Assembly (NCBI GenBank): GCA_009929375.1
Contig: SAAO01000001.1
Coordinates: forward strand, 1-64,000
DNA: 64,000 nucleotides
Direction: 5' to 3'
Origin: Bacteroidia bacterium
Lineage (GTDB): Bacteria; Bacteroidota; Bacteroidia; Bacteroidales; Paludibacteraceae
The translations under genes and the position numbers were made by a program. Below the pieces are notes generated by a model. That model was given only the letters and a program-made list of their open reading frames with translations. It did no database searches and was not told where the DNA came from. Position 1 is the first letter of the stretch. Each line of letters begins with the position of its first letter. Below, piece after piece: positions 3,557 through 32,660 of the stretch.

Positions 3557-3631
3557 ACATTATGTGCAAAGTGCTAAAAATCTGAAAATTACAACATGAA
3601 TTTGATTCAAAAAATCAGGCTGTTTTAAAAC

Positions 3632-3659
3632 AAAAATCCCGTCGTATGACGGGATTTTT
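3632..3659. terminator. Bidirectional hairpin between the array and cas2
   Basis: Two perfect 12-base arms (3632-3643 and 3648-3659) enclose a GTAT loop, with five A on one side and five T on the other. It can therefore end transcription from both directions, which fits an array running rightward and a cas operon running leftward. Confidence 0.85.
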
Positions 3660-3668
3660 GCTTTCTGA

Positions 3669-4028
<360 letters not shown>

Positions 4029-6054: not shown

Positions 6055-6576
6055 TTACTCGCCATAATAATCGTAAAAAACGCCAGCTATATCATCGGCA
6101 AAACCATACCCGCACGGAGATGCCCATTCTACACATTGTTCGGCACGGGCTCTGAACACATCGAGTGTTTTATTTTTTGCCATAAACTCAAGTGCAGCCT
6201 TGTAATTATTATATGCCGAATCGTAAAATTGCTCAGAAAAATCGCCATAGCAATATGTCAACTCACAGGCACTTTCGGGCAAGTACAGCATAACATCGGC
6301 TAATGCTTCGGCTGTTGGTTGTAAGTTCTTAAAATCCGAGATAGCTTTTTTAGCAACAGAAAATTTCTCACTGCTACGCTCCGGTCTCTCTACATTGAAC
6401 TCTTTCCGAATCAATTTTTTATACTTTTCAACCAGTTCCTTTTCGTTACGTGGATTCAGATAAAAATTGTAAAACTCCCTCACCGCTTTGTTTTTCTCGT
6501 ACAAATCAAGAATTTGTTCTACCAATTGCTCTTTGGTAAGGTTGTTCAGTTCTTTTTTTAGTTTTGCTTTGGACAT
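6055..6576 (-). CDS. DUF6155 family protein
   Basis: A protein of 173 residues beginning MSKAKLKKELNNLTKEQLVEQILDLY, which I recognise as the DUF6155 family pattern. It is helical, soluble and charged, with no signal peptide or membrane segment. No enzymatic motif is visible and the function is unknown. It sits between the intact RAYT and a truncated RAYT copy, inside the two 342-bp duplicated arms, and may have been carried or trapped there when the RAYT region duplicated. It is on the same strand as cas9 and cas1, so it could be read from the same transcript. The family name is a recollection, hence moderate confidence. Confidence 0.7.
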   Translation of the reverse strand: MSKAKLKKELNNLTKEQLVEQILDLYEKNKAVREFYNFYLNPRNEKELVEKYKKLIRKEFNVERPERSSEKFSVAKKAISDFKNLQPTAEALADVMLYLPESACELTYCYGDFSEQFYDSAYNNYKAALEFMAKNKTLDVFRARAEQCVEWASPCGYGFADDIAGVFYDYYGE

Positions 6577-10400: not shown

Positions 10401-11742
10401 TCCCATACTTCACGGTGTAGTTAAGTACCAAACCATCCCAATTAATACCGTAATTATTTTCATCCTGAATAAATTTGTTATCCCATTCTTCGTTGAAGAC
10501 ATTCATTAATGCGGCAATAGTTGGGCAGGTTGAAACATTTGGTAAGTTTTTATAATTAAACTCATAAGTCCCATTTTCTGAGTAGTTTTTGATTATATCT
10601 TCGAAGTTAAAATAAGACTCTCCACTAATTTTGCCTTTATTTTTACCACCTACAAGTTTTCTAAAAAACAGATCTTCAAAAATTCTCTTTTTTAAAGTGA
10701 TTGGAATTTCGACAAATTCTTTACTGTCTTTTTCCCTCCATTTAATATTGTTGATGAATTGTAAAGCACGGAACTCTTCGAATTTTGGATGACTAATAGG
10801 AATGCGTGGTCTTCCTTTTTCTAAGGTGCAATTTCCGACTAATCCTTTTTGAGACCGTAAAGGACGTACAAAGTAAATAGCTTTATGCAGGCTTTCAATT
10901 AATGCGCTACTTAAATTTTGTTTGTTGCAAATAGCAAAAAATTCATCTTCAAAATATTTTCTTTGAATTACACCACTTGCTCGAAAGCGTTCTCCGTTAT
11001 CAAGTCTTTCTTTAGCTAAAAATGAAATTTGAAAGTTTGAGTTCTCTTTTTTAAGTTGTTCAATATCTTCATTTGTTGCAAAAGTTGATTTTCCACTTTT
11101 TCGACTGGACTTAAAGCCTCTTCTTTGTACTAAATGGTAAAGTGCTCTTCCAATTTTCAGTTTTTTAATGTATTCATTAGTTTCTTCTTGTTTTATTAAT
11201 TCACAGCGTAAATCATAAGGGTTTTTCCTAACAGGTTTTCCATTTATTGAGGTTCCTTTATCGCCGAAAATTGTTGGGTCAAGTGCTAACCAATTTTGGA
11301 AATCTTCATTGTTTACAGGATATATCCGTCCTTTATTTTTCCATTTATCTTCATATTTTTCCCAATATCCAACACTCCATAGTCTTAACTCATCCTTTGT
11401 CAAAGGACACATTTCATTTTCGATTAGTACTTTTAGGAGTTCCCATTTTCTATACCTTTTAGCATTATAAAGCCGACGCTTACTACGATTATTTCTTCTC
11501 TCAGCTGCTAATGAAAATTCACCGGATTTTCCATCACCAACCCCTTTTTTGAATATTATGACTCCATTATCAACAATTTCATTATCTTTATCTATTTCTT
11601 TTTTATTCTGAATTTGTTTCAGGCTTTCAAATCTATCAGTAAAAAACCTTTCAAAATAAACCTCTCTTTCAAAGCCATCATTAACACGTATAGCCCAACC
11701 AATTGAGTTTGTGCCAAGGTCAAGTCCTAAAAATTTTGCCAT
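7471..11742 (-). CDS. cas9: Type II-C CRISPR nuclease Cas9
   Basis: A protein of 1423 residues, the usual size for Bacteroidota Cas9. RuvC-I opens the protein (MAKFLGLDLGTNSIGWA, catalytic D8). An arginine-rich bridge helix follows at about 80-100. RuvC-II is KIVIEMARE with E756, the HNH domain carries H869 in IMHTFPVSASFD followed by the ANLT and YYNNE asparagines, and RuvC-III is HSHHAQDAAIL with D1048. The last 300 or so residues are the variable PAM-interacting part. All expected catalytic residues are intact, so it should cut DNA guided by crRNA and tracrRNA. It starts about 40 bases from the tracrRNA, which runs in the opposite direction. No cas4 or csn2 is nearby, which supports II-C. 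RAYT DNA separates it from cas1. Confidence 0.98.
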   Translation of the reverse strand: MAKFLGLDLGTNSIGWAIRVNDGFEREVYFERFFTDRFESLKQIQNKKEIDKDNEIVDNGVIIFKKGVGDGKSGEFSLAAERRNNRSKRRLYNAKRYRKWELLKVLIENEMCPLTKDELRLWSVGYWEKYEDKWKNKGRIYPVNNEDFQNWLALDPTIFGDKGTSINGKPVRKNPYDLRCELIKQEETNEYIKKLKIGRALYHLVQRRGFKSSRKSGKSTFATNEDIEQLKKENSNFQISFLAKERLDNGERFRASGVIQRKYFEDEFFAICNKQNLSSALIESLHKAIYFVRPLRSQKGLVGNCTLEKGRPRIPISHPKFEEFRALQFINNIKWREKDSKEFVEIPITLKKRIFEDLFFRKLVGGKNKGKISGESYFNFEDIIKNYSENGTYEFNYKNLPNVSTCPTIAALMNVFNEEWDNKFIQDENNYGINWDGLVLNYTVKYGNKTGAKRDLKVDEIWHLLFDYIQTKDKIEDLEKFCKDVLEFDEDKTKAFCSIDIPQGYGSLSYKAINKILPFLQGGYIYSEALLFANLKKVLGSEFENKKEDAKTIIAKTIKKTGLIKERYNIVNGLIQSYFAEAETNHAKGADEKIIETAKKETIDRLKKYYGENEWNKKPESEKELIQKEVFILYIRFLNGEQTKEEKASAKDNHIPEIDYYKLPRLDESIKQNLRSSFNIAESNLKALYHPSDIEMYPVSRTELKDTNTKILESPQPPSKGWKNPMAMRTLHELRHLINYLLKIGKIDKETKIVIEMARELNDANKRWAIQTYQRYREDENKEFAKAIVGVVKQKYPNLNENDIENINKVRLWWEQVENNEEVYKQIKSLKEDIEKYRLWKEQDCICIYTGKPINITNLFDGTQTQIMHTFPVSASFDSSLANLTVGDAYYNNEIQSNKIPTQLPNYSKDVIIKGRTYTAIEPRIEKWKEKVIHFKNLIEENKKRTKKTQDPGTKKNLIQNRHLLQFDYDYWKKKVETFTLTEIPLQWKNSQLIDTQIISKYARAYLKTVFEKVDVQKGTNTDKFKKIYQIKGDEQKDRSKHSHHAQDAAILTLIPNSAKREAILESYYKAEEEKRKFHTKPYESFNSSHILDIEKNVIINHISHDKTLTETIKNIRKRGERTGKKAQGNSIRGQLHKETFFGAIKVLERNEQGFPIKENGKYKILKNKIEEDEIWIVSKKPIKDIKIDKDIIVDDLLKKHIQKQLDNGISLESVTDFNNKPIRHIRIRVKAGVGFLSKDKAMPIKTQTYSSRHTHKNEYLVQNEENYLFLLYEGLNDKNKTIRHYRILNLFDIAQLKIKDINTIKNEPEFQTIKKGKFELSLKVILKAGDKVIFYNESRDEITPENTKNRLYKLYKFNEMGSAFLYFQNHIEARTEKDIEKTESTFNPSRYQARLMLVLDKINCLFENKDFKICPDGTVVFI

Positions 11743-19193: not shown

Positions 19194-21974
19194 ATGAAGT
19201 ATTTACTCAGCACATTATGCCTGACAATCGTTTTGTCAGCCACTGTTTATTCCCAAAAAAGAAGCCTGCAAATATCTGATTTTGCCAACTGGAAACGTAT
19301 TGAAAGCCGTAAAATCAGCAACGATGGAAATTTTGTGGCTTATGAAATAAAAAAGCAAAAAGGTGATGGTGTACTACTCATTTACAATGCAGTAACTCAA
19401 AAAACCGACAGCATTCAGCATGGCTATCAACCTGAATTTTCGGCCGCTTCCGACTTTGTGGCTTTCCGTATTCGTCTGCCCGAAGACAGTTTGCGTAAAC
19501 TGAAAGTGGCCAAAACAAAGAAAGAAAATATGCCCAAAGAGAAGTTGGGGATTTTCAACCTGAAAAAAGCAGAGTTAAGCACTTTTGCCGATGTAAAAAG
19601 TTTTGCTTTGCCTGCGGAGAATAGCAACTTCATAAGTTTTCTGGCCAAACGTGAGCTTCCAAAAGTCGACACCACCGCAACCGACAGTACTAAAACTGCA
19701 AAGGACAAGAAAAAAACGAAAAAAGATATTTACGATCTTACGGTGCTGAATCCTGTGTCGGGCACAAAACATATTTTCAATGCGATTGATACTTTCAGTA
19801 TTTCAGCAAAGTCGGGTAAAATTGCATTTCTATCGCAGCTTAACGACAGCAATAAAATGAAAGCGCTAATAGTATTTGATAGCGAAACAGCTAAAACCGA
19901 TACTTTATTAAAAGACTCATTACACTTTCGTAAAATTACTTTCGACGAAAAAGGACTTCAGTTAGCATGGCTGGTTTCGGGCGACACGGCTAAGAATAAA
20001 AATTTTGCCTTGTATTACAGTGCGCTAAAAAAAATAAAAGTCACCCGTATTGCCGACAGCGCAACCATTGGACTAAAACAAAATATGTCGCCATCGGAAA
20101 ACGGGGGTATCTATTTTTCGCCTGATGGCAGCAAACTTTATTTCGGAGTAGCTCAAAAAGTCATTAATGAACCAAAAGACAGTTTGCTCGACGATGAAAA
20201 ACCACGCCTCGACCTGTGGAGCCATACCGATATGCTGATTCAGCCCCGTCAGCTAAAAGAAGTAAACCGCATGAAGAAACAAACTTTTCTGGCTGTATAT
20301 CGCACCGATGACAAAAAACTGTTTCAGATAGCCGACAGCACTTACGAGCAGACACAACTCCATGCCCGCAACAATGGCGATATTGCTCTGGTGTCGGACC
20401 GCAAACCTTATTTACGTCAATCCACTTGGAGTACTGTTTCGCCTTCGGACTATGCTGTCATCGATCTGAAAAAAGGCAAAACTCTTTTCGAACTAAAGGA
20501 AAAAAACGGCGTGCAACTTTCGGCTTCGGGTAAGTATCTGATTTGGTACGACCACGCTGAAAAACAATATTTCGTGGCCGACATTAAAACTCAAAAAACA
20601 TATCCTGTAACTCAGCAATTGCGCGTTTCTCTTACCGACGAACTGCACGACACTCCTAACCTGCCCGATACTTATGGCATTGCCGGATGGACCGAAGACG
20701 ATAAATATGTGCTTGTGTACGACCGCTTCGATATTTGGAAAATTGATCCTAAAGGCAAAGAAAATGCTCAAAACATAACCAACGGACGGGAAGCTAAAAA
20801 ACGTTTCCGCTATATTTCTGTCGACCCGGAACAATACTTTATAAATTTGAATAAAAAGCTTTTACTTTCCTCGACCAATGAAGATAATTGGGCTGAAGGT
20901 TTTTTCAGCCTGTTGCCCGGATCAGTCCAACCTGAAAAAATTCTGGAAGTAAACGAATCTCTGAGTAACCCTGCGAAAGCACGAAATGCCGAAAAGTATC
21001 TGTGGTCGTCGCAAACGGTAAAAGATTATCCGGAAATACGTTACAGCACCGAAAACTTTACTGATTCGAAAGTGATTTCGGAAACCAATAGCCAGCAAAA
21101 AGATTTTGTATGGTCAACCGTCGAGTCGGTCGAATGGGTTTCGTTTGCCGGCGACACTTTGCGCGGATTGCTTTACAAACCCGAAGACTTCGACCCTTCG
21201 CAGAAATATCCGATGATGGTTTATTTCTACGAACGCAGCTCCGAAACCATTCATCGTTACAACCTCCCGCAACCAAGTCGCTCCATTATCAGCATTCCGT
21301 TTTACAACAGCAACGGTTATCTGGTTTTTGTGCCCGACATTGTATATCGCGATGGCTATCCCGGACAAAGTGCTTACGACGCTATTGTGAGTGGTGTTCA
21401 GAAACTCAGCAACACACGTCCTTATATCAACAGTCAGAAAATCGGCTTGCAGGGACAAAGCTGGGGCGGATATCAGATTGCTTATCTGGTAACTCAAACC
21501 AATATGTTTGCAGCAGCAATGGCAGGTGCTCCGGTTAGTAATATGACAAGTGCTTACGGCGGAATTCGTTGGGGAACAGGTATGAGCCGCATGTTTCAGT
21601 ACGAAGAAACACAAAGCCGCATTGGTGGTACTTTGTGGGACAAACCCATGCATTATATCGAAAACTCGCCTGTATTTATGGCTCCAAAAGTGCAAACGCC
21701 CTTACTCATGATGCACAACGACAACGATGGCGCAGTGCCCTGGTATCAGGGAATTGAATATTTCATAGCGCTTTACCGCCTTGGCAAACCCGTTTGGATG
21801 CTAAACTACAATGGTATGGAACACAATATCGAATCGCAATACTGGGCTAACCGTGTGGACTTAAGCACACGTATGTTCGGATTTTTCAATCATTATCTGA
21901 AAGACATGCCCGCTCCCGAATGGATGACAAAAGGAATTCCGGCCATTGACAAGGGGAAAAAGACGGGATACTAA
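19194..21974 (+). CDS. Secreted prolyl oligopeptidase family (S9) serine peptidase
   Basis: About 926 residues from the ATG at 19194 (a TTG two codons earlier is less likely). The N-terminus is a signal peptide (MKYLLSTLCLTIVLSATVYSQ), so the protein is exported. Residues up to about 640 form an atypical beta-propeller region with many KK/DST-rich stretches. The C-terminal alpha/beta hydrolase domain has GQSWGGYQ with the nucleophile S756, an aspartate at 845 in NDNDGAVPW and H877 in GMEHN. It should cleave peptides in the periplasm or at the surface. Its last 80 coding bases plus the bases after the stop recur at 32535-32623, at the far end of the following AT-rich island, so this gene is the insertion target. 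Confidence 0.93.
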   Translation: MKYLLSTLCLTIVLSATVYSQKRSLQISDFANWKRIESRKISNDGNFVAYEIKKQKGDGVLLIYNAVTQKTDSIQHGYQPEFSAASDFVAFRIRLPEDSLRKLKVAKTKKENMPKEKLGIFNLKKAELSTFADVKSFALPAENSNFISFLAKRELPKVDTTATDSTKTAKDKKKTKKDIYDLTVLNPVSGTKHIFNAIDTFSISAKSGKIAFLSQLNDSNKMKALIVFDSETAKTDTLLKDSLHFRKITFDEKGLQLAWLVSGDTAKNKNFALYYSALKKIKVTRIADSATIGLKQNMSPSENGGIYFSPDGSKLYFGVAQKVINEPKDSLLDDEKPRLDLWSHTDMLIQPRQLKEVNRMKKQTFLAVYRTDDKKLFQIADSTYEQTQLHARNNGDIALVSDRKPYLRQSTWSTVSPSDYAVIDLKKGKTLFELKEKNGVQLSASGKYLIWYDHAEKQYFVADIKTQKTYPVTQQLRVSLTDELHDTPNLPDTYGIAGWTEDDKYVLVYDRFDIWKIDPKGKENAQNITNGREAKKRFRYISVDPEQYFINLNKKLLLSSTNEDNWAEGFFSLLPGSVQPEKILEVNESLSNPAKARNAEKYLWSSQTVKDYPEIRYSTENFTDSKVISETNSQQKDFVWSTVESVEWVSFAGDTLRGLLYKPEDFDPSQKYPMMVYFYERSSETIHRYNLPQPSRSIISIPFYNSNGYLVFVPDIVYRDGYPGQSAYDAIVSGVQKLSNTRPYINSQKIGLQGQSWGGYQIAYLVTQTNMFAAAMAGAPVSNMTSAYGGIRWGTGMSRMFQYEETQSRIGGTLWDKPMHYIENSPVFMAPKVQTPLLMMHNDNDGAVPWYQGIEYFIALYRLGKPVWMLNYNGMEHNIESQYWANRVDLSTRMFGFFNHYLKDMPAPEWMTKGIPAIDKGKKTGY

Positions 21975-21983
21975 TGCAATGGA
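21895..21983 (+). repeat. Left boundary repeat of the island (89 bp)
   Basis: Covers the last codons and stop of the S9 peptidase gene. It matches 32535-32623 without gaps at 82 of 89 positions. Four of the differing codons are synonymous and two change the residue, so the two copies look like homologous gene ends from different lineages rather than a fresh target-site duplication. Confidence 0.92.
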
Positions 21984-22105
21984 GAGTTGGCAATGGATAA
22001 TTAATGAGCTACTGTCGAATTTGTCCCTACATTCCTTATGGTGATTTGTTTGCAAGAATCGAATAAAAAAAGATATGTACGACACAGATTGGCTGACTTG
22101 AATTA

Positions 22106-22113
22106 TACTTTTG
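22106..22113 (+). promoter_or_regulatory. Candidate promoter of island module A
   Basis: TACTTTTG matches the -7 consensus 62 bases before the first island gene; no convincing -33 box is seen. Confidence 0.5.
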
Positions 22114-22174
22114 CATTAATTTAAGGAAAGCTGAAAACTTTACAGAGTAGGCAAAATCAAAAAAACAAAGAATT

Positions 22175-22426
22175 ATGGCAAATTATTATTGCGAGTATTG
22201 TGGACAAAAATTTTCAAGTGTATCGAGTTTAACGGCAGCAAGTTGCCCTCGCCATCCAAATGGAATGGGAAAAGGAAAACACAAATTGTATGAAGGAAGT
22301 GAGAAGACAAAATACACATGCAAGTATTGTGGACAAACATTTAATTCTTTAAGCTCATTAACCGCAGCAAGTTGTCCACGTCACCCAAATGGAATGGGAA
22401 AAGGAAAACACGCTCCAGCTTTATAA
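22175..22426 (+). CDS. Small protein with two C2H2-like zinc-finger repeats
   Basis: A protein of 83 residues made of two nearly identical halves: (Y/T)xCxYCGQxF(S/N)SxSSLTAASCPRHPNG, then MGKGKH. Each half has two cysteines in C-x2-C spacing, a third cysteine and two histidines, enough to bind zinc. It has no signal peptide. Bacterial relatives of this motif exist but I do not know a function. It is the first gene of the island and its stop is two bases before the exonuclease start, so the pair is translationally close. It could be a DNA or RNA binding accessory of the exonuclease. Confidence 0.75.
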   Translation: MANYYCEYCGQKFSSVSSLTAASCPRHPNGMGKGKHKLYEGSEKTKYTCKYCGQTFNSLSSLTAASCPRHPNGMGKGKHAPAL

Positions 22427-22428
22427 GT

Positions 22429-22899
22429 ATGGAAAGTTTTACTGCTATTGATTTTGAGATTGCACAAGGTTATCGTTGGAGTATTTGTCAAGTTGGACTT
22501 ATTCGGGTAGAAAACGGAATTATAACCAATGAATTAAACATATTGGTTCAACCTCCGAATAATTATTATTGGGACAGGTTTATTGATATTCATGGAATTA
22601 CGCCCGAAAAAACAGCTAACGCTCCAACTTTTGATAAAATCTGGCACAAAGTAGAGCCATTTATTAATGGACAAACCGTTGTAGCACACAATGGTTTGTC
22701 TTTTGACTTTCCTGTTCTTGCTAAAACTCTTGAGTATTATGGGCTACAAGAACCCATTTACGAAAAACGTTGCACTTATAAAATCTACAGGCAAGGTCTT
22801 AATGCACTTTGCGAAAAACACAATATCCCATTGAATCATCATGACGCTTTAAGCGATGCACGGGCTTGTGCAGAATTGTATTTGAGACATTTGATATAG
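22429..22899 (+). CDS. DnaQ-like 3'-5' exonuclease (DEDDh)
   Basis: 156 residues from the ATG at 22429, two bases after the previous stop; a longer frame exists upstream but overlaps the zinc-finger gene. All five DEDDh residues are visible: D8 and E10 in AIDFE, D93 in HNGLSFDF, and H138 with D143 in HHDALSDA. The family trims DNA or RNA from the 3' end. Free-standing domains of this size occur as proofreading-like or nuclease accessories. It sits between a zinc-finger peptide and a SprT-like protease, pointing to nucleic acid processing within the island. Confidence 0.88.
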   Translation: MESFTAIDFEIAQGYRWSICQVGLIRVENGIITNELNILVQPPNNYYWDRFIDIHGITPEKTANAPTFDKIWHKVEPFINGQTVVAHNGLSFDFPVLAKTLEYYGLQEPIYEKRCTYKIYRQGLNALCEKHNIPLNHHDALSDARACAELYLRHLI

Positions 22900-22942
22900 A
22901 ACAAAAGGAAAGCTCAAAGCAATTAATTTATATAAATACACC

Positions 22943-23308
22943 ATGATACAGAAAATCTTGAAGCAGGTCTTGGAAAATAAGTATTCGAAAAATGAAGCCG
23001 AACAAAAACGATTATTGGAAGTTCTGTTTTTAACTCAGGAATATCTTAACAACTATAACCTTTCAGCTATTGAAATAAAATTCACTAAAAGAAAAGACGC
23101 TTTGGGATTATGTTCCTCAACAGGGGATACCATATCTTTGAATTTAGACTTTGTTATGAATGATAAGTTAGAAAATATAATAGAAACTATTCTGCACGAA
23201 ATAGCCCATGCAATGACAAGTGGAGAAGGACACTTTATTGAATGGCAAATAAAAGCGATAGAATTAGGGCTTAGTTATGAACATATACAACGCTATAAAG
23301 AACTATAA
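22943..23308 (+). CDS. SprT-like zinc metalloprotease domain protein
   Basis: A protein of 121 residues. The zinc site is clear: H85-E86-x-x-H89 in LHEIAHAMTS and a third histidine H97 in GEGHFIEW, followed by the family's W and GL pattern. SprT/Spartan relatives degrade proteins crosslinked to DNA, but the bacterial members are poorly known. It lacks the C-terminal zinc ribbon of longer SprT proteins, although the zinc-finger peptide two genes upstream might supply a comparable module. It ends three bases before the AAA+ gene starts, so they are almost surely cotranslated. Confidence 0.85.
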   Translation: MIQKILKQVLENKYSKNEAEQKRLLEVLFLTQEYLNNYNLSAIEIKFTKRKDALGLCSSTGDTISLNLDFVMNDKLENIIETILHEIAHAMTSGEGHFIEWQIKAIELGLSYEHIQRYKEL

Positions 23309-23311
23309 AAA

Positions 23312-24889
23312 ATGAATAGGAAAATAATTGAAAATCAGTTCAACAAATATCTTCAGGTATATCATTATACAGAGGATGATAAACCTTTATTAAAAAATTT
23401 AAAAAATTTCTATCATCAGGAAGAAGTAGATTTAGCTTTGTGTTCAGAGGATTTTTTTAATTTCTTGCTCAATGAGTCGGATTTGGAAATTGAAACAAAA
23501 ACTCAAATTGCACTCAAACATCAAGACTTAATCACTAATTTTCCTCAAAAAAAAGAAGTTTTAGAAGAAAACACAATAACCGGAATTGAAAGAGTTTTTG
23601 ATTTTTATAATCAGCATCTAAAAAACAAAACATATAATTTTCAAATTCAATTTTTCGGAAAAACATTACCGGTCTTGGTAAGTTTTGAAATGATAAATGC
23701 CAGTAGAGGAACACCAAGACATATAGCGATCAATTATAAAATTTCCGTATGTGGTATCTTCGATGAAAAAAGAAGTCATAACTTATTTCATAAGGAAATC
23801 AAGGAAGCTAGAGCCAAATATAAAAAAATGGGATTTTATGAATTAATGAGAGAAATTGGACTTTACAAATTAGAAATAAACATTATCGATTATGAACAAT
23901 TACTTGAGAAAACTGAAATTCTGATGAAGCAAAATGGTGTACAGTTTTTAACTAATCAAAAAGTTCTTGAATACGAATATCAAAATGTTTTCACATGGTA
24001 TTTATTGTCGAGTAGTGATTCATTTTCAAAAGTAATATTGGAATCAGAATTAGAAATTAATCAAGATAGAAATCATTATTATGATAGAGAAAAAGTTGGG
24101 TTAATTGAAAACTACACAACACCTTACGTACGAATTTTCTCTCTATCACAAAAACGATATTATTTTATACATATCGATGACCTTATGCCATATCAGTATG
24201 ACAAAGAATCCTTTTCAAAACTAGTCATACCTGAAGAAACACGAAGTCTACTATCCAGTGTATTTCAATCCAATATTAAAGATTATTACAGCGATTTTAT
24301 AAAATCAAAACACGGCGGAATGGTAGTTTTGGCAGAAGGACCTACAGGTGTTGGAAAAACATCTACCGCCGAAGTATATGCCGAATTACTTGAAAAGCCT
24401 TTGTATATGGTACAATTGGATGAGCTTGGAACCGATGCTAGAGCTATTGAAAGTAACCTTTCTAAAATTTTTAAACGAATACAAAAATGGAATGCTGTTT
24501 TGCTTTTTGATGAAATTGATGTGTATTTATTCCGACGGGAAAATGATTTAGCTCAATCGGCAATTGTAGGTGTTTTTCTACGGTTGTTAGATTATTTCTC
24601 AGGTTTAATATTTTTCACTACCAATAGAAGTTCGGTTTTAGATTCTGCAATATTAAGCAGAATATCTCTTAGAATAAAGTATAAAAAACTTAACGAAGAC
24701 GCACAACTTGAGATTTGGAAAAGTAAACTTCAGGATGCACAAGTAACGATTGATTCTTTACAAGTACTACCTAACTTAGAACTTAATGGACGTCAAATAA
24801 AAAACACGATAAGAGTAGCTAAAGTTGTATATGGCAATCAACTCAGTGAAAATGAGGTTGTTCATTTAATTGAACAGTATATAATATAA
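23312..24889 (+). CDS. AAA+ ATPase with large uncharacterised N-terminal domain
   Basis: A protein of 525 residues. The C-terminal AAA+ domain has Walker A GPTGVGKT (343-350), Walker B LLFDEID (397-403), a sensor-1-like FFTTNRSS, and a probable arginine finger in ILSRISLRIKYKK. About 330 residues before it, beginning MNRKIIENQFNKYLQVYHY, are acidic and of no family I know. The spacing to the SprT-like gene (3 bases) suggests a functional pair, for instance an ATPase feeding the protease or loading on DNA. It differs clearly from the second island ATPase. Confidence 0.85.
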   Translation: MNRKIIENQFNKYLQVYHYTEDDKPLLKNLKNFYHQEEVDLALCSEDFFNFLLNESDLEIETKTQIALKHQDLITNFPQKKEVLEENTITGIERVFDFYNQHLKNKTYNFQIQFFGKTLPVLVSFEMINASRGTPRHIAINYKISVCGIFDEKRSHNLFHKEIKEARAKYKKMGFYELMREIGLYKLEINIIDYEQLLEKTEILMKQNGVQFLTNQKVLEYEYQNVFTWYLLSSSDSFSKVILESELEINQDRNHYYDREKVGLIENYTTPYVRIFSLSQKRYYFIHIDDLMPYQYDKESFSKLVIPEETRSLLSSVFQSNIKDYYSDFIKSKHGGMVVLAEGPTGVGKTSTAEVYAELLEKPLYMVQLDELGTDARAIESNLSKIFKRIQKWNAVLLFDEIDVYLFRRENDLAQSAIVGVFLRLLDYFSGLIFFTTNRSSVLDSAILSRISLRIKYKKLNEDAQLEIWKSKLQDAQVTIDSLQVLPNLELNGRQIKNTIRVAKVVYGNQLSENEVVHLIEQYII

Positions 24890-24915
24890 GATGAGCAAGA
24901 TATGAAGAAACCATT

Positions 24916-25440
24916 ATGGCAAATCAATTTCAATTTATTGAAAACTTAGAGCATTACGAAGCAATGGTTAATTTATTCAAAAAAGCCAAACGAACGTTAT
25001 GGATAGGTACTGCCGATATTAAGGATTTGTATTTCAAACAAGGTATCCAGGCAGTACCCATGCTGAAATTATTAGAAGAAATAATAAAACATGGGGTTGA
25101 AGTCAGATTGATTCATGCCAAAGAACCCGGACCAAATTTCAGAGCGGATTTCGACAAATATCCAATACTGAAAACGCATCTCGAAAGGGTACTTTGCCCA
25201 CGCGTACATTTCAAACTTTACATTATTGATTTAACTGAAGCATATATCGGCTCTGCAAACTTTACAGGTGCTGCCATAGGTATGAAAAGCAATAACAATC
25301 GAAATTTCGAAGCTGGCATACTCACCATATATCCAGAAATAGTAAATCGAGCCGTGAATCAATTTGACAAAGTTTGGGCGGGTGTCCACTGCAAAACCTG
25401 TGGGCGAAAACTGTATTGTGGCGACAATATAAATGCGTAA
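24916..25440 (+). CDS. Phospholipase D-family (HKD) protein with C-terminal zinc ribbon
   Basis: A protein of 174 residues with a single HKD motif: H98, K100 and D105 in HFKLYIIDLTEAYIGSANFTG. Single-domain members are typically nucleases that work as dimers (Nuc/BfiI type), although other activities exist in the superfamily. The C-terminus has C159, C162 and C168 (HCKTCGRKLYC), resembling half of a zinc ribbon. It ends module A of the island; 189 bases follow before the next gene. Confidence 0.82.
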   Translation: MANQFQFIENLEHYEAMVNLFKKAKRTLWIGTADIKDLYFKQGIQAVPMLKLLEEIIKHGVEVRLIHAKEPGPNFRADFDKYPILKTHLERVLCPRVHFKLYIIDLTEAYIGSANFTGAAIGMKSNNNRNFEAGILTIYPEIVNRAVNQFDKVWAGVHCKTCGRKLYCGDNINA

Positions 25441-25603
25441 AAAACATATCAATTTCTACGTAAAGCATATTTTCGGAGAAATTGTATTTAGAAGATGTCT
25501 CAATCGAGAGAAAAAACGAAAGGGCTTAAACCCTGCAAAACCGCCTGAAAATAAATTGTTAAAAATAAATCAATTAATATTAGGGATTTAGAGTTGTTTT
25601 TTT

Positions 25604-25611
25604 TATGTTTG
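25604..25611 (+). promoter_or_regulatory. Candidate promoter of island module B
   Basis: TATGTTTG matches the -7 consensus, 18 bases before the 32-residue ORF; a separate promoter would let the DUF262-AAA-WYL genes be expressed apart from module A. Confidence 0.5.
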
Positions 25612-25629
25612 TGGAAAATTTAATATAAC

Positions 25630-25728
25630 ATGGAAAAAATTACATTTGATGAGCATGAATTTGAAAACTATTTAACTGATGAGTTTTTGATCGTAAACAA
25701 ATACCAAAATAAGAATTATGAGCAATAA
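25630..25728 (+). CDS. 32-residue ORF overlapping the DUF262 gene
   Basis: ATG at 25630 opens MEKITFDEHEFENYLTDEFL and the stop is at 25726-25728, inside the next gene, whose ATG (25718) lies 8 bases before it. The 11-base overlap in a different frame is typical of translational coupling. The peptide is acidic and aromatic-rich, with no known motif. It could be a leader peptide, a tiny antitoxin-like partner or the remnant of a longer gene. It is too short to be sure it is translated. Confidence 0.5.
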   Translation: MEKITFDEHEFENYLTDEFLIVNKYQNKNYEQ

Positions 25729-27589
25729 AATTGAATTAAAATCGATAAACGAATTATTTGGAATGAATTTTTATATTCCTGCATACCAAAGAGGATATCG
25801 TTGGAATATACAACAAGTAAAGGATTTGTTAGAAGATATCCAAGAATTTATAGAAAAAAAGAAGGAAGGGTTTTATTGTATCCAACCACTGGTCGTAAAG
25901 CGAAGTATACCTGATGGAAAAATTAATGATTTCAAAACTGGGTTACATAAAATATATAATGCTGAAAGCGTAGAATTACTTGTCGACGAAACAGAAAAAC
26001 TCATTTTTGAAAATACTCAATGGGAGGTAATTGATGGTCAGCAGCGATTAACAACAATATATATCTTGCTTCATACATTGGATGTTAAAAATAAATACGA
26101 GATTGAATATCAAACACGTCGAGATAGTAAATCATTTTTAGATAATATTGATAAAACTAAAAAGGAAGAGAATATTGACTATTTTCACATATCAGAAACT
26201 AAAAACACAATTGAAGATTGGTTTAAAGAAAAGGGAGAACAAGATAAAATAAAATTTATAGAAACACTTTTGAAAGATGTTCAGTTTATTTGGTATGAAT
26301 CTGTTGACGAAGACCCAATAAAAATATTTACTCGATTAAATATCGGTAAAATATCACTAACCAATTCAGAACTTATTAAAGCTCTTTTTCTTAATAAATC
26401 GAATTTTGGGGGTAGTTATCAACGTGTCAGACTTCAACAAAATGAAATAGCAATAGAGTGGGATCAGATTGAATATGCTTTGCAAAATGATGAATTTTGG
26501 TTGTTTTTACATAAAGCTAATTACGACAAACCAACGCGAATAGATTTTATTTTTGATATAATTTGTGAAAAGAACATTCTGAAACTCAAAGATGAACAAA
26601 GAAAAAACTTAGGCAGTGATGATTATAAAACATTCAGATACTTCTATAAATGGTTTAAAATGCAAGAAAATTTGAATATTGCGGATTGCTGGAAAGAAGT
26701 AAAAATAATTTTTCAAACAATTCAAGAATGGTATAATGATATAAAATTGTATCACTATATTGGCTTTTTGATTGAACAAGGGACAACTGTTTCAATCATA
26801 CTCGACAAATGGAATGAGCCGAATAATACTATAGAGAAATTTATATCAGATTACCTATTCATTGAAATAAAAAAGAAGATTGATAAGTGTTCTGATTTGA
26901 ATAGACAATATGAGGATAGTGCAAGACCACAATGCAGACCTATTCTGTTGTTACACAACATTCAAACTGTAATCAATCAAAATCAATCACTTATTGAAAA
27001 AGACAAATACAAACTACCTGTTTTTTATAAATTCCCATTTCACTTATTTAAAAAAGAGGTTTGGAATGTTGAGCACATTGATTCGAACACCGAAAATTGT
27101 TTAGAAAATGACAAAGTTCAAAAAGAGTGGTTAAGTTCATGTTTAATTGCAGGGGTAAGTATAGAAATTGTGTGTGAGATTAGGAATTTCTTAAATAACA
27201 AAACAATTGACAATCAAAATAATTTTGAAAAATTGCGTTTAAACATCTTGTCTTCGGATAATAAAAACAAACTTGAAGGCAGTGAAAAGGATATGCTATG
27301 GAACTTTACATTGCTGGATGAATCCACAAATAAAAGTTATGGAAATGCTATTTTCTCTGCAAAAAGAAGAGTAATACTAGGTAAAGACCAAGGAAAAAAA
27401 ATTACCATAGATGAAAAGTTTGAAATTATGGAAAGAAAAAGCGAAAGTGCATTTATTCCACCTTGCACAAAAAACGTCTTTCTAAAATACTACAATCCAC
27501 TAACAAACAATTTACGTGAGTGGGATAAAACCGATGCGGAAGCATATCTTGAGAATATTAAAAAAACATTACACGATTTTCTAAATTAA
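25718..27589 (+). CDS. DUF262-DUF1524 (GmrSD-like) nuclease
   Basis: A protein of 623 residues. The N-terminal DUF262 ParB-like domain has IPAYQRGYRW (20-29) and the DGQQRLTT signature (106-113). The C-terminal part carries an HNH-like DUF1524 site: H453 in NVEHIDSN, N529 in LWNFTLLDES, and SYGNAIFSAKRRVI. This is the single-chain form of GmrSD, a type IV restriction system that uses NTP and cuts modified phage DNA. The HNH residues appear intact, so it is a plausible nuclease. It is followed after 6 bases by a second DUF262 gene. Confidence 0.85.
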   Translation: MSNKIELKSINELFGMNFYIPAYQRGYRWNIQQVKDLLEDIQEFIEKKKEGFYCIQPLVVKRSIPDGKINDFKTGLHKIYNAESVELLVDETEKLIFENTQWEVIDGQQRLTTIYILLHTLDVKNKYEIEYQTRRDSKSFLDNIDKTKKEENIDYFHISETKNTIEDWFKEKGEQDKIKFIETLLKDVQFIWYESVDEDPIKIFTRLNIGKISLTNSELIKALFLNKSNFGGSYQRVRLQQNEIAIEWDQIEYALQNDEFWLFLHKANYDKPTRIDFIFDIICEKNILKLKDEQRKNLGSDDYKTFRYFYKWFKMQENLNIADCWKEVKIIFQTIQEWYNDIKLYHYIGFLIEQGTTVSIILDKWNEPNNTIEKFISDYLFIEIKKKIDKCSDLNRQYEDSARPQCRPILLLHNIQTVINQNQSLIEKDKYKLPVFYKFPFHLFKKEVWNVEHIDSNTENCLENDKVQKEWLSSCLIAGVSIEIVCEIRNFLNNKTIDNQNNFEKLRLNILSSDNKNKLEGSEKDMLWNFTLLDESTNKSYGNAIFSAKRRVILGKDQGKKITIDEKFEIMERKSESAFIPPCTKNVFLKYYNPLTNNLREWDKTDAEAYLENIKKTLHDFLN

Positions 27590-27595
27590 TAAAAT

Positions 27596-29875
27596 ATGGC
27601 AATAAATCAACATATAACGTTTTGGCAATTTTTACAAAGTCAGAAGATTGAAATTCCAATTATTCAACGTGACTACGCACAAGGCAGAAATGGAAAAGAA
27701 AAATTACGAGAAAAATTTCTCAAAGATTTGAAACATGCCTTAGACAATAACGATTCGAACTCAAAACTTAAACTCGATTTTGTTTATGGAACGCTGGAAA
27801 GTGAGAAGTTACAACCACTCGATGGACAACAACGATTAACTACACTATGGCTTTTACATTGGTATATAGCTTTCAAAGCAGGGAAATTAGCAGATAACAA
27901 AGAAGTCTTCAAGAGATTTACTTATGAAACAAGAACATCCTCACGTGAGTTTTGCCATAAACTTTCGGAGTTTTCGGATTCAACTTCAAATAACATAGTT
28001 TCACACATTCAAAACCAAACTTGGTTTTATTCTATCTGGAAGCAAGACCCAACAATTCAAGCAATGTTGAATATGTTGGGAGGCACAGATATTTGTGAAA
28101 AAGATGTAGATATCGTTGATGGCATAGAGGAATTATTTACAGATAATTTTGAATATTATTGGAATATACTAATAAGTGAAAATTGTCCAATAGTATTCTA
28201 TTATATGCCTTTGAACGAGCTAAAGTTATCAGACGACTTATATATAAAAATGAATGCAAGAGGAAAGCCACTAACCAGTTTCGAAAATTTCAAGGCCGAT
28301 TTAGTCGGTTTTATGAAATCGAATAATGAAGATAATAACACTAACATTGATAAATCGAGTATTTCTGATATTCGTAGCTTTGAGCATAAATTAGATACAG
28401 ATTGGACCGATATTTTCTGGAAAAATAAATCTGAAAATTTTAAAATTGATGAAATATATTTTGCTTTTTTCAATCGCTACTTTTTGAATAAGCTTATAAC
28501 TGCAAAAAAGACAAACGGGAAGGATTTATTAACGCAAAAGGAAATTGAATCAAATAAATTATTCAGATATTTATATGGTGAGTCAAGTAATGATACAAAA
28601 GTAAAATATAACAGCTTCGATGTTTATAAATCGGAAAAATTATTGAATAAAGAGTTATTCGAAGGACTTAATCAGACTTTGGATAATTTCTACTCTGCAT
28701 TCAAAAACATCTCAAAGAACGAAATAAACACGAAGTTTTATCCAAGCTGGGATGTCAATTCAACCTTTCGTTTTATTCCTGAATATGTTGAAAATTCTAC
28801 AAATAACAATAACGAACATAAGTATATTCCGAGTTTAATAACTCAACCGCAAAGAGTTGTTTTTCATGCAATATGTTGTTATTTTGAAAATAATCAATAT
28901 GATGAAATTTCATTTAAACAATGGATGCGTGTTGTTTGGAATATTGTTGAAAATGCAAATATCAATAACAATGAATCAATGATTGGTTCAATCCGCTTAA
29001 TAACTGATTTAAGTAGAAATGCCCACAACATTTACATTCATTTGAAAGATAGAGATATTTCAAAAGATTTTGCAAAAGATCAAATGGAAGAAGAAAAAGA
29101 AAAAGCTAGAAAAATAAATGAAGATTCAACATGGGAAGAAAAAATAATTGAAGCTGAAAATTGGTCATTTTTTAAAGGTGCTATTCGTTTTCTATTTAGA
29201 ATTGAAAATAATACTTACGAATGGGATAAATTTAGCAATCGTTTTGAAAAATGTAAAATTTATTTTAATAATGAAGGTGTTGCTCCAGAATATAAAGAAA
29301 AATCTATTTTGCTTCGTTTTTTAATTAGCAAATTCAATAAATTAGATCATTTTAAAATGTTTTATGATAATTCCAATAGTTCTTGGAAATTGAATCTGTT
29401 AAGATATAGAAATGTAATTAATTCATTCCTTGATTCAGATAATATAAAGGACTTTGATTTTTCATCTTTCGAGTCAGTAATTCAAGACACAAAATTACAT
29501 TTTTTTCAAAATGACTTAGTGAGAACTGAAATTCTAAATCATATTTGCCCTGGTTGTTTATTTCATGATTGGAATTATTCTTTGTATCCATACAATACCA
29601 AAACACAAACTAAAATCTATTTGCTTGCAGATAAACGGAACCAGATTTTAAGTGAGTTGGAGAATGAAAACATAATTAGAGTTGATGATTGGCAAAGAAT
29701 TGAAAAACTACCATTTTATAGAGGTTGGGAAATATATTTTACAAATCAACTAAACAACAAAAAGTATCAATGGAGGAATAAATTAAAAGTGCAATCAGAA
29801 TCAGGTGAATGGCAAGAAGATAGTAATAGTGTTGATTTAAGTAATTTGAGAGAACACCTCCAAAAACAAAATTAA
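27596..29875 (+). CDS. Second DUF262 protein, without visible HNH
   Basis: A protein of 759 residues. IPIIQRDYAQGR (20-31) and PLDGQQRLTTLW (75-86) give a clear DUF262 domain at the N-terminus. The remaining 600 or so residues are charged and helical, and I did not find the EHI...N...F..KR pattern of DUF1524, so unlike its upstream neighbour it may lack nuclease activity and act as a sensor or partner. It starts 6 bases after the first DUF262 gene. Tandem DUF262 genes occur in other genomes, but the combination with the AAA+ gene that follows is not one I know as a named system. Confidence 0.8.
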   Translation: MAINQHITFWQFLQSQKIEIPIIQRDYAQGRNGKEKLREKFLKDLKHALDNNDSNSKLKLDFVYGTLESEKLQPLDGQQRLTTLWLLHWYIAFKAGKLADNKEVFKRFTYETRTSSREFCHKLSEFSDSTSNNIVSHIQNQTWFYSIWKQDPTIQAMLNMLGGTDICEKDVDIVDGIEELFTDNFEYYWNILISENCPIVFYYMPLNELKLSDDLYIKMNARGKPLTSFENFKADLVGFMKSNNEDNNTNIDKSSISDIRSFEHKLDTDWTDIFWKNKSENFKIDEIYFAFFNRYFLNKLITAKKTNGKDLLTQKEIESNKLFRYLYGESSNDTKVKYNSFDVYKSEKLLNKELFEGLNQTLDNFYSAFKNISKNEINTKFYPSWDVNSTFRFIPEYVENSTNNNNEHKYIPSLITQPQRVVFHAICCYFENNQYDEISFKQWMRVVWNIVENANINNNESMIGSIRLITDLSRNAHNIYIHLKDRDISKDFAKDQMEEEKEKARKINEDSTWEEKIIEAENWSFFKGAIRFLFRIENNTYEWDKFSNRFEKCKIYFNNEGVAPEYKEKSILLRFLISKFNKLDHFKMFYDNSNSSWKLNLLRYRNVINSFLDSDNIKDFDFSSFESVIQDTKLHFFQNDLVRTEILNHICPGCLFHDWNYSLYPYNTKTQTKIYLLADKRNQILSELENENIIRVDDWQRIEKLPFYRGWEIYFTNQLNNKKYQWRNKLKVQSESGEWQEDSNSVDLSNLREHLQKQN

Positions 29876-29937
29876 ATAAAAGCCTCTGCCATCCTTTGTC
29901 TCACTCTGTACCTATTTTTGCTCAAAAATACAAAGAT

Positions 29938-31611
29938 ATGGAACAGAATATTAGAATTAGGCTATTAGAAAGCATTGGCAAAATCTATGAAGAATCAAAA
30001 GATTGCAAACTCGAACCTGCATTTTTTGAAAAAGTTGAAAAAGAATTATCAGAGTTATCCAATTATTTCGGAATTTCACATACACAGTCGTTACTTGTGG
30101 CAATGGTATTTTCGCTCAATTACAAAGGGGATACAGTAGATTTTAAAGATTTAACTGAATATTTCGATTGTAACCCTATGAAATTACTTGAGTATAGCAG
30201 TGATTTTGAGAATCTGTATTCAAAAGGAATTTTTATAAAGGAAAAATCAAGACATAGAATTAAATTGGCTTTATCTAATGATCAGTTTACAATAAATGAA
30301 AAAGTTACAGAAGCCATTTTAAATAACATGCCGTTGCCGAAACTTGGAGAAGAAGTAGCAAAAGATATTATTGAGCTTTTGGAAAAAATATATGAGTTAG
30401 GTTTACAACGGGATGAAGATGAAATTTCAACTGAATTGTTATTTGATCAAATAATGAATTTAATAAGAAATAATCTGCATTATCCGTTAATAAAAATGGC
30501 AGATGATTTTAATTTCAATATCGAAGATACCTATCTATATTTATATCTAATTTGGAAAACATTAAATGGGTATGAATCGGTTGATATTGAACGTACAATA
30601 AGCGGAATTTTTGAAAATAGAACTCAGAAAATTAAGTATGTTCAAAAAATAATTTCAAGTGAGAATGATTTAATTCGTCATCAACTTATTGATATTATTG
30701 AAGCAAGGTTTCATAACGATATCGAAATTAAGCTTACTGAAAAATCATGCAAATTGATTGAAAAATGCGGGTTAAAGTTATTGACCAAAAAGAAAGTTAA
30801 TCAAAATAATATTATTACGCCAAATCAGATATTTACAAAGAATCTTTTTTATAATGGCTCGGAAGCAAAGCAACTTAATATACTAAAGCAAATACTTCAT
30901 GATGAGAATTTCAGAGCAACTCAACAGCGCTTAGCATCTAAAGGTTTGCCAAATGGTATAACCGCTTTATTACATGGTTTTCCTGGTACAGGCAAAACAG
31001 AAACAGTTTTGCAAATCGCTAAGGAAACCAATAGAGAAATTATTAAAGTTGAAATTAGTCAATCAAAATCGATGTGGTTTGGTGAAAGTGAGAAGATTAT
31101 CAAGCGGATTTTTACAAATTACAAGTCGTATGCTAAAGATTGTGAGCTAAAACCTATTTTATTGTTTAATGAGGCTGATGCAATTTTTGGAAAACGTAAA
31201 GAAATCGGCAATTCAAATATTGACCAAACTGAAAATACAATTCAAAACATTTTACTCGAAGAGTTGGAAAGTTTTGACGGTATATTTTTGGCAACAACTA
31301 ACTTAGTGAAAAATTTGGATACAGCATTTGAAAGACGTTTTTTGTTTAAAGTTGAATTTCAAAAACCAGATAATTCTATAAAAGCAAAAATTTGGAATTC
31401 AAAGCTTCCAAATCTAACAGAAAATGAGTGCAATGCACTCGCAAATCGCTTTGATTTTTCTGGAGGTCAGATTGACAATATAATACGCAAAAATGAAATA
31501 TATGAAATTGTACATGGAATTACAGTTGATTTCAATAGTATTGTAGAATTTTGTAATTCAGAATTACTTTTAAGAAATAAGTCATTCAAAGTTGGTTTCA
31601 CAAAAGAATAA
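29938..31611 (+). CDS. AAA+ ATPase, second in the island
   Basis: 557 residues from the ATG at 29938; an upstream TTG at 29896 is less likely. Walker A is GFPGTGKT (347-354). The Walker B region reads PILLFNEADAIFGKR, with asparagine N411 where the usual aspartate stands and the catalytic-type glutamate E412 kept; I recall the same FNEAD form in related Bacteroidota ATPases. Arginine-finger-like RRF follows in TAFERRFLFK. The N-terminal 330 residues are helical with no known domain. It ends 6 bases before the WYL gene, so ATPase and regulator are coupled. Confidence 0.82.
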   Translation: MEQNIRIRLLESIGKIYEESKDCKLEPAFFEKVEKELSELSNYFGISHTQSLLVAMVFSLNYKGDTVDFKDLTEYFDCNPMKLLEYSSDFENLYSKGIFIKEKSRHRIKLALSNDQFTINEKVTEAILNNMPLPKLGEEVAKDIIELLEKIYELGLQRDEDEISTELLFDQIMNLIRNNLHYPLIKMADDFNFNIEDTYLYLYLIWKTLNGYESVDIERTISGIFENRTQKIKYVQKIISSENDLIRHQLIDIIEARFHNDIEIKLTEKSCKLIEKCGLKLLTKKKVNQNNIITPNQIFTKNLFYNGSEAKQLNILKQILHDENFRATQQRLASKGLPNGITALLHGFPGTGKTETVLQIAKETNREIIKVEISQSKSMWFGESEKIIKRIFTNYKSYAKDCELKPILLFNEADAIFGKRKEIGNSNIDQTENTIQNILLEELESFDGIFLATTNLVKNLDTAFERRFLFKVEFQKPDNSIKAKIWNSKLPNLTENECNALANRFDFSGGQIDNIIRKNEIYEIVHGITVDFNSIVEFCNSELLLRNKSFKVGFTKE

Positions 31612-31617
31612 AAATAT

Positions 31618-32517
31618 ATGTCGAAAAGAGAATCAATAACACGTTATAGCCTGATTATAAAAAAGTTGAGAAAGAGCCCCGCAACTTTTAATGAAATATC
31701 AGAATATCTTTTGTTGGAATCAGAATTGCAAGAGTACAATTTTAATGTTTCAAAACGAACCTTTAAAAGAGACATAGAAGATATAAGTTCGCTTTATAAT
31801 ATCGATATAGTTTATGATTTTTCGCGAAAAGTTTATTATATCGACTTTGACGAACAACCGGAAGTAAACGAAAGAATTTTTGAAGCTTTTGACACTTTTA
31901 ATGCATTGAATATTAGCGACAGACTTTCTGACTTTATTCATTTTGAGAAACGGAGACCGCAAGGAACTGAAAATCTATATGGTTTATTACACGCTATAAA
32001 AAACAAAGTGCAGATTTGTTTCTCGTATCAAAAATTTTGGGAAGACAATATTACGTCAAGGGTTGTTGAACCTTATGCCCTCAAAGAATTTAAGAACCGC
32101 TGGTATATTTTAGCAAACGACTTGAAAGATAACAAAGTAAAAAGTTTTGCATTGGATCGTTTAACTGAGTTAGAAATTACGAATAAAAAATTCCAATTAC
32201 CCAACAATTTCAACACAAACGAACACTTTAAATTTTCATTTGGCATAATTAGTCCTAACGGACATGAACCCCAAGAAGTAATACTGTCATTTGACCCATT
32301 TCAGGGAAAATACATTAAAACTTTGCCGTTACACGAATCACAAGTTATTCTAAAAGACAACGAACAAGAACTGCTAATAAAACTTAGTTTGTATATAACA
32401 CATGACTTTTTTATGGAAGTATTGTCGTTTGGTGAAAATGTAAAAGTCATTCAACCTGAAAGTTTAATTTCTGATTTAAGAAGTGCTTACAACAATGCCT
32501 TAAATCAATACACTTAA
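31618..32517 (+). CDS. WYL-domain transcriptional regulator
   Basis: A protein of 299 residues. An N-terminal helix-turn-helix (RYSLIIKKLRKSPATFNEISEYL, and SKRTFKRDIEDISSLY) is followed by a WYL domain with RVVEPYALKEFKNRWYILAND and a WCX-like tail. WYL domains bind ligands, probably nucleic acid-related ones, and WYL regulators frequently sit in and control defence islands. As the last gene of the run it is probably autoregulating the module. It ends 17 bases before the right boundary repeat begins, so the island finishes here. Confidence 0.88.
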   Translation: MSKRESITRYSLIIKKLRKSPATFNEISEYLLLESELQEYNFNVSKRTFKRDIEDISSLYNIDIVYDFSRKVYYIDFDEQPEVNERIFEAFDTFNALNISDRLSDFIHFEKRRPQGTENLYGLLHAIKNKVQICFSYQKFWEDNITSRVVEPYALKEFKNRWYILANDLKDNKVKSFALDRLTELEITNKKFQLPNNFNTNEHFKFSFGIISPNGHEPQEVILSFDPFQGKYIKTLPLHESQVILKDNEQELLIKLSLYITHDFFMEVLSFGENVKVIQPESLISDLRSAYNNALNQYT

Positions 32518-32534
32518 AACCTTTAGAGAAACAA

Positions 32535-32623
32535 ATCTGAAAGATATGCCCGCTCCCGAATGGATGATAAAAGGAATTCCAGCCATAGACAAGGGGAAAA
32601 AGCTGGGATATTAATGCAATGGA
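32535..32623 (+). repeat. Right boundary repeat of the island (89 bp)
   Basis: Encodes a second S9 peptidase C-terminus in frame, ending KGKKLGY and a stop, instead of KGKKTGY at the left copy. There is no peptidase gene upstream of it, so it is a scar of the original gene end. Confidence 0.92.
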
Positions 32624-32660
32624 TAATTGATAATGGACAGTTGATAATTATTATTGAGAT

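Follow-up and report, generated by a model that had tools for sequence, protein, structure and literature searches.

Restriction of modified DNA by two-gene GmrSD-like systems, which act through DUF262 and His-Me domains, is described in the available portions of two papers, of 2024 and 2025, and the need for two proteins is left open there (PMC11411939, PMC12137116). In GrwAB, as described in the accessible text, the first gene encodes a DUF262-DUF1524 protein and the second a DUF262 protein with a tail of unknown domains, and defence is abolished by mutating the DUF262 arginines or the His-Me residues (PMC12137116). GrwAB and TgvAB, both from islands of V. cholerae, are presented in these portions as a pair standing alone or within a type I locus. 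Here we describe a 10.5 kb island (positions 22006-32534) in a 64,000-nt stretch of a Bacteroidia bacterium genome (contig SAAO01000001.1, positions 1 to 64,000; henceforth the window), in which such a pair (DUFa and DUFb) instead lies beside a zinc-finger protein (ZnF), an exonuclease (Exo), a AAA ATPase (AAA571) and a WYL regulator. We found no description of this gene set in the open-access literature searched. The reading that we favour, with a probability of roughly 0.6, is that of a mobile defence cassette in which a WYL-controlled chassis carries interchangeable pairs that restrict modified DNA.

The island comprises nine genes and one open reading frame (ORF) of 32 residues, all on the plus strand and separated by intergenic gaps of 2, 43, 3, 26, 277, 6, 62 and 5 nt. 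An earlier note, made from the DNA letters, had listed ten features on one strand with mostly tight spacing, which the coordinates and gaps bear out, and the gene identities that it named agree with the Pfam assignments. The features are as follows:

21895..22005, plus strand: flanking direct repeat, left copy (3' end of an S9 peptidase gene and about 30 nt)
22077..22160, plus strand: leader, with GTANGACACNNATTGGCT first, a box resembling TANNTTTGC in the middle and AAGGAAAGCNGAAAACTTT last
22175..22426, plus strand: ZnF, 83 residues, two C2H2-type zinc fingers (Pfam)
22429..22899, plus strand: Exo, DEDDh 3'-5' exonuclease-like, 156 residues (Pfam RNase_T; DxE and HxxxxD present)
22943..23308, plus strand: SprT-like metalloprotease, 121 residues (Pfam; HEIAH motif)
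23312..24889, plus strand: AAA525, AAA+ ATPase, 525 residues (Pfam AAA; canonical Walker A and B; adjoins SprT)
24916..25440, plus strand: PLD/HKD nuclease-like protein (PLD), 174 residues (Pfam PLDc_2; single HKD motif, HFKLYIID)
25630..25728, plus strand: 32-residue ORF (N terminus matches a 92-residue acidic protein of genome G034)
25718..27589, plus strand: DUFa, DUF262-DUF1524, 623 residues (Pfam GmrSD_N; DGQQR; H453/N529/N538)
27596..29875, plus strand: DUFb, DUF262 with a long C-terminal part, 759 residues (Pfam GmrSD_N; DGQQR)
29938..31611, plus strand: AAA571, classic-clade AAA ATPase (Pfam AAA; Asn replaces the Walker-B Asp)
31618..32517, plus strand: WYL, WYL-WCX transcription regulator, 299 residues (Pfam)
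32535..32645, plus strand: flanking direct repeat, right copy (87% identical to the left copy)

Exo, SprT, PLD, DUFa, DUFb, AAA525 and AAA571 all carry their active-site motifs, the one exception being the Walker-B Asn of AAA571.

Judged by its sequence, DUFa-DUFb is a pair of GmrSD-like (type IV restriction) genes whose layout is closest to GrwAB and TgvAB. Both proteins carry the DUF262 motifs (QR, DGQQR and an FxxxN-like motif), and E452-H453, N529 and N538 of DUFa showed no variation across the 18 rows aligned; a DUF262-DUF1524 protein with a DUF262 partner, these shared motifs and the His-Me residues H, N, N also mark the V. cholerae pairs in the portions of text available. The 623-residue DUFa did not reach the Pfam GmrSD_C model and Pfam detected the DUF262 part alone in DUFb; in profile comparisons, DUFa matched SspE (E = 1.8e-19) and DUFb matched solved GmrSD-type proteins (E = 9.2e-8). 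DUFa thus combines a DUF262 nucleoside triphosphatase (NTPase) with a DUF1524 nuclease as GmrSD, BrxU and SspE do, but those are single proteins whereas the system in the window consists of two. Gene order and the long C-terminal part of the second protein recall GrwA-GrwB, a likeness by published description, and by layout DUFa would be the GrwA/TgvB-like and DUFb the GrwB/TgvA-like partner.

A profile search with DUFb over 84,980 species genomes confirmed at least 145 places, 80 of which were kept as named loci (loci are numbered L and genomes G below). DUFa adjoins DUFb in 78 of these 80 (77 at a stricter score), and in both exceptions (L150 and L194) the contig ends at DUFb. By record title the loci belong to Bacteroidota, spirochaetes, Clostridia, Proteobacteria, actinobacteria and others. 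Three of them (L151, L176 and L192) are embedded in a type I locus in the order hsdM-hsdS-DUFa-DUFb-hsdR, which is the setting given for TgvAB in the accessible part of its description (PMC11411939). The GrwAB-like layout and the TgvAB-like setting together make DUFa-DUFb a pair of known kind.

AAA571 is, by its predicted structure (mean predicted local distance difference test score, pLDDT, 82; predicted template modelling score, pTM, 0.48), a classic-clade AAA protein of the p97/FtsH class, with matches to proteasome Rpt, Vps4, FtsH and Cdc48 (best E = 6e-12). The ORF is 571 residues long; the start common to its relatives, ATG 29938, gives 557. Of 62 relatives, 61 have NE as their Walker B, and the remaining one falls outside the pattern. 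Separately, 42 of the 62 proteins have a K/R/N-x-G-F terminus.

We found that the chassis genes recur with one another and with the pair. Among 46 AAA571 loci found in relatives, WYL was present in 24, the exonuclease in 8, DUFb in 8 and PLD in 7, and the 80 named DUFb loci contained WYL (18), the exonuclease (15), AAA571 (10), a phosphoesterase (6), PLD (4) and ZnF (2). These counts cover the fetched stretches, 35 of the 80 named ones being shorter than 20 kb, so that counts of absence are upper bounds. All ten named loci with both AAA571 and DUFb also held WYL, and seven held the exonuclease; by contrast, AAA571, WYL, exonuclease, DUFb and the other counted families were found in none of 20 control windows, which span 375 kb in genomes of the same draw and were placed around weak AAA matches that are probably FtsH or its like. 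The recurrence of DUF262-DUF262-AAA-WYL, which the earlier note had named as support, was thus observed. The 13 loci of relatives picked by DUFb gave AAA571 5, WYL 5, exonuclease 5 and PLD 4, and with three more picked by AAA571 (16 loci) the numbers were 8, 8, 7 and 5; L107/L132 and L125/L212 are two loci that stand, under two names, in both the relatives' set and the named set.

The order of the genes is ZnF-Exo-DUFa-DUFb-AAA571-phosphoesterase-WYL in Sphingobacterium alimentarium (L203), WYL-Exo-DUFa-DUFb-AAA571 in Flavobacterium sp. (L139) and a member of Bacteroidales (L135), and AAA571-WYL-Exo-DUFa-DUFb in Bacteroides caecigallinarum (L134). A calcineurin-like phosphoesterase of about 200 residues was also seen near the exonuclease, ZnF, AAA571 or WYL in L203, L106, L092, L121, L105 and L141.

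We used a tree of 62 AAA571 proteins, 17 of which have DUFb in their stretch (the window, 8 loci of relatives and 8 found through DUFb; the near-identical L107 and L113 are both counted). The exonuclease was present in 12 of these 17, versus 2 of the 45 without DUFb, and it tracked DUFb 6.6 times versus 0.2 over 10 independent pairs (median p = 0.031, range 0.008-0.22). Linkage of DUF262 to AAA571 changed at least 12 times on the tree (shuffled mean 15.1, with 6 of 300 shuffles at or below 12), meaning that it has been gained and lost often.

We compared identity matrices over 25 loci chosen for the pair and at least one chassis gene (L113 was dropped). Within groups the matrices were correlated (rho of 0.61 for DUFa-DUFb, 0.53 for AAA571-WYL, 0.58 for Exo-WYL and 0.33 for Exo-AAA571), whereas across groups they were not (AAA571-DUFb -0.02, WYL-DUFb 0.00, Exo-DUFb -0.18). 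Full-length proteins gave, in the same order, 0.87, 0.64, 0.58 and 0.56 within groups (values reached by 0, 0, 3 and 6 of 1000 permutations), versus -0.31 to 0.01 across. Removing the window's genus left 0.83, 0.65, 0.61 and 0.64 within and -0.31 to -0.04 across, and removing two further divergent pairs left 0.78, 0.50, 0.55 and 0.57 (reached by 0, 15, 7 and 35 of 1000 permutations) within and -0.29 to 0.16 across.

Individual loci show the same. In L085 (genome G034) and L086 (G002), both of the window's genus, identity to the window is 91 and 86% for WYL and 83 and 78% for AAA571 versus 27 and 24% for DUFb; beside its different pair, L085 also has a 415-residue DUFa ORF of the window's type (76% identity; the window's has 623 residues). 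Conversely, the closest relatives of the window's DUFb, i.e., L134 (60% over a partial 391 residues), L125 (53%) and L106 (49%), have WYL proteins at 27-30%. The restriction pair and the chassis thus appear, from these comparisons, to have been exchanged independently of each other.

The run of genes is headed by a conserved leader of about 85 nt, 5' of ZnF, which recurs in G034, G136 and Sphingobacterium, where WYL shares 91, 77 and 73% identity with the window's copy (ZnF is 95% identical in G034 and 74% in L203). In G136 the leader stands on a 6.3 kb contig with a small ORF, DUFa-DUFb and WYL, and with no ZnF, exonuclease or AAA571 on that contig; in G116 the first half alone is found, 5' of a 259-residue ORF, AAA571 and WYL. 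Of 119 genomes, 3 had an exact first half (18 nt), a single copy in each and solely at such operon heads (reversed control 0). In a draw of 111 family genomes that did not include G034 or G136, the window's genome was the only one with the exact second half. The middle of the leader we take to be a Bacteroidetes-type -7 box. We propose that the leader is a candidate promoter/operator to which the WYL protein would bind. A structured RNA was considered and rejected, with no compensatory base-pair change and no Rfam match. In viral contigs the two halves had 15 and 1 exact matches, none on stretches with island genes. WYL-domain regulators of the BrxR/CapW type likewise stand at defence loci (PMC9122601, PMC9122588); a word search in PMC9122601 returned no DUF262, exonuclease, AAA or Bacteroid-, though GmrSD appears there three times.

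Base composition and borders point to acquisition from elsewhere. The fraction of G and C is 0.302 inside the island versus 0.398 across the remaining window (the host genome comprises 3.87 Mb in 122 contigs), and the island is bracketed by an imperfect direct repeat of 111 nt, absent from the earlier note, whose copies are 87% identical and cover the S9 peptidase gene's final 25 codons plus about 30 nt past it. Six codons differ between the copies, four of them silently, which suggests that the right copy derives from the end of a homologue of that gene brought in from outside; no third full copy was found in the window's genome. None of the nine island proteins matched an integrase or transposase in Pfam, i.e., the island was not found to have the integrase of its own that would mark an integrative element. 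Most likely the island inserted where a protein-coding gene ends (3'), either through homologous exchange or with the help of an integrase that has since been lost or was supplied from outside. Relatives of the S9 peptidase were found in 4 other genomes of 60, in stretches where the downstream reductase had no match at E = 1e-20, and hence no empty insertion site was demonstrated. With its foreign-looking DNA, the island is probably a mobile defence cassette.

Given the gene content, motifs, recurrence, leader and independent divergence described above, we infer a mechanism whose target (modified DNA), biochemical steps, WYL ligand and operator are all putative. DUFa and DUFb would sense modified bases of incoming DNA through their DUF262 NTPase domains, the His-Me (DUF1524) domain of DUFa would cut the modified invading DNA, and the exonuclease would chew the cut ends into single-stranded DNA. 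AAA rings of the p97 class remodel protein complexes, and AAA571 may assemble, reset, or clear and recycle the restriction complex. WYL would control the operon at the leader and be switched by the single-stranded DNA that cutting and chewing produce, closing a feedback loop; in PafBC, according to the accessible portion of its description, single-stranded DNA binds the WYL domains and activates the protein (PMC11804915). ZnF-Exo together with AAA571-WYL would then form the chassis that receives different restriction pairs.

A wider generalisation, which we offer tentatively and hold somewhat less probable than its opposite, is that of chassis-and-cartridge immunity, in which a WYL-controlled helper set (ZnF, exonuclease, AAA571 and leader) serves swappable modification-dependent restriction modules. 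Cartridges would be the GrwAB-like pair in the window and, in one locus (L090), McrBC behind AAA571-WYL. If this holds, exchange of the cartridge would let a lineage redirect its attack from one DNA modification to another, with sensing, end-processing and control retained. The locus family also offers candidate accessory genes, and a candidate operator with its matching regulator, for two-gene GmrSD-like restriction, and natural cartridge swaps between similar chassis make specificity and helper function testable by exchange. In L090 (3597-9199), an AAA_5 (McrB-like) gene and McrBC come directly after AAA571-WYL, the same two genes here preceding a different modification-dependent restriction set. 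Relatives of AAA571 were also seen on six viral contigs (L309-L314), with no WYL, DUF262 or other island families in those stretches.

Several results weigh against a WYL-controlled chassis with interchangeable pairs. AAA571 was not seen in 70 of the 80 named pair loci (39 of 45 among stretches of at least 20 kb), and a phylum-wide draw of 395 genomes yielded one genome besides the window's with both AAA571 and DUFb; the 10 DUFb loci from this draw held AAA571 once, WYL twice and the exonuclease not at all. The link between chassis and pair is therefore thin outside Bacteroidales. On the AAA571 tree, WYL (15/17 with DUFb vs 19/45 without) and PLD (7/17 vs 3/45) went in the same direction as the exonuclease without reaching significance (median p of 0.5 each), and 13 of the 45 rows without DUFb are on stretches shorter than 12 kb, possibly hiding genes. 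Neighbours of AAA571 in loci without DUFb (70 of 229, searched with PADLOC) gave 15 families versus 34 in 70 control proteins, i.e., no enrichment in defence. A winged helix at the N terminus of AAA571 was weak, with no match at E = 0.001, and the leader was undetected in the next WYL clade members (L089-L091; 60-64% identity).

These points bear on the strongest rival, a plain defence island in which independent genes have gathered, the DUF262 pair acts by itself and AAA571-WYL belongs to another system. Clustering of this kind could yield co-location with no joint action, and it remains a live rival, though we consider it unlikely. It would account for the many pair loci in which AAA571 was not seen, for the 45 of 62 tree rows in which DUFb was not seen, for the want of co-divergence between chassis and pair, and for AAA571 lying beside or near McrBC (L090), a Schlafen-type gene (L091), HsdM (L089), HsdR (L092) and PDDEXK_4 (L098). 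It sits less easily with the recurrence of Exo-DUFa-DUFb with fewer than 40 bases between genes in L111, L135, L139 and L203, with an exonuclease whose presence tracks the pair among AAA571 loci, and with a single leader, shared by the window, G034, G136 and Sphingobacterium, at the head of the run.

The remaining genes, SprT-AAA525 and PLD, are accessory inserts in the window's copy. SprT and AAA525 were found in 2 of 199 genomes (the window's own counted), adjacent both times and never apart, with 3 nt between them in the window, which confirms the pairing that the earlier note had pointed to. In the other genome (G023) they lie about 1.2 kb after a different GmrSD pair (GmrSD_N, and GmrSD_N with GmrSD_C, by Pfam), and among the other chassis loci scanned they were present in 0 of 80 and 0 of 46. 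In several genomes, PLD relatives with 55-61% identity have a DUF262 pair or AAA571 in their vicinity, and the slot between exonuclease and DUFa is elsewhere occupied by AbiEi-AbiEii (L107 and L113) or a RhuM-Fic protein (L124). With a pair of known kind, optional inserts and no co-divergence of chassis and pair, the earlier note's proposal of a single undescribed ten-gene composite is not supported; we rejected it in favour of at least three units, namely the DUF262 pair, ZnF/Exo/AAA571/WYL, and the SprT-AAA525 and PLD inserts.

A composite aimed at protein-linked DNA, a target that the earlier note had named beside foreign DNA, in which SprT-AAA525 would free phage or plasmid DNA ends of covalently bound protein as a counterpart of SPRTN/Wss1 with p97/Cdc48, is very improbable, since for all the tightness of this pair and its place near a DUF262 pair both times, it was unseen in the other chassis loci, six plasmid AAA525 loci have no SprT direct neighbour by Pfam, and the target would be read, by analogy, solely from this insert. 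In yeast, according to the portion of the paper available, Wss1 complexes with Cdc48 and counters Top1 adducts (PMC4559962). The window resembles SPRTN/Wss1-p97 in placing a SprT-like protease beside a AAA ATPase, both with intact motifs; the latter systems are eukaryotic, whereas a partnership in the window would be read from gene adjacency. Should SprT and AAA525 prove to act together, the two would amount to a compact bacterial analogue of SPRTN with p97.

Relatives of AAA525 were found on 207 plasmid records and, by the patterns used, on no viral contigs. We considered SprT-AAA as a widespread plasmid pair and rejected this, as Pfam gave no SprT-like direct neighbour in L246, L249, L250, L251, L252 and L254; in L246 the third gene downstream of the AAA525 relative matches SprT-like weakly (E = 0.015), and an HExxH protein in L250 weakly resembles a peptidase (E = 0.047). 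L247, L248, L253 and L255 were scanned for HExxH alone. A ParA or ParB gene was seen near the AAA525 relatives in plasmid stretches L246, L252 and L255.

Two other named systems were compared. Both island AAA proteins match the IetA/IteA models weakly (76 and 48 bits versus a cut-off of 510), and no subtilase is among the island's Pfam matches, as IetAS would have. For DISARM, the PLD protein scored 41 bits with the DrmC model, versus a cut-off of 133, and no helicase or methylase is among these matches.

The 32-residue ORF is, from its N-terminal match, probably the remnant of a small acidic protein, the 92-residue version of which, in G034 of the same genus, lies upstream of an intact DUF262 pair. 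Small acidic proteins of about 90 residues were seen near GmrSD pairs in the window's genus (L085, 6973-7248; L105, 7684-7761).

Elsewhere in the window, positions 1-4000 (the part covered by this search) contain a CRISPR array with 46 copies of the repeat unit at a spacing of about 77 nt, close to a Cas1 gene at 4053-5093. A protein of 1422 residues (7471-11742) has an HNH_4 and a borderline Cas9_a match. Together these probably make up a type II CRISPR-Cas9 locus, which encloses a DUF6155 gene (6055-6576) and is separated from the island by about 10 kb.

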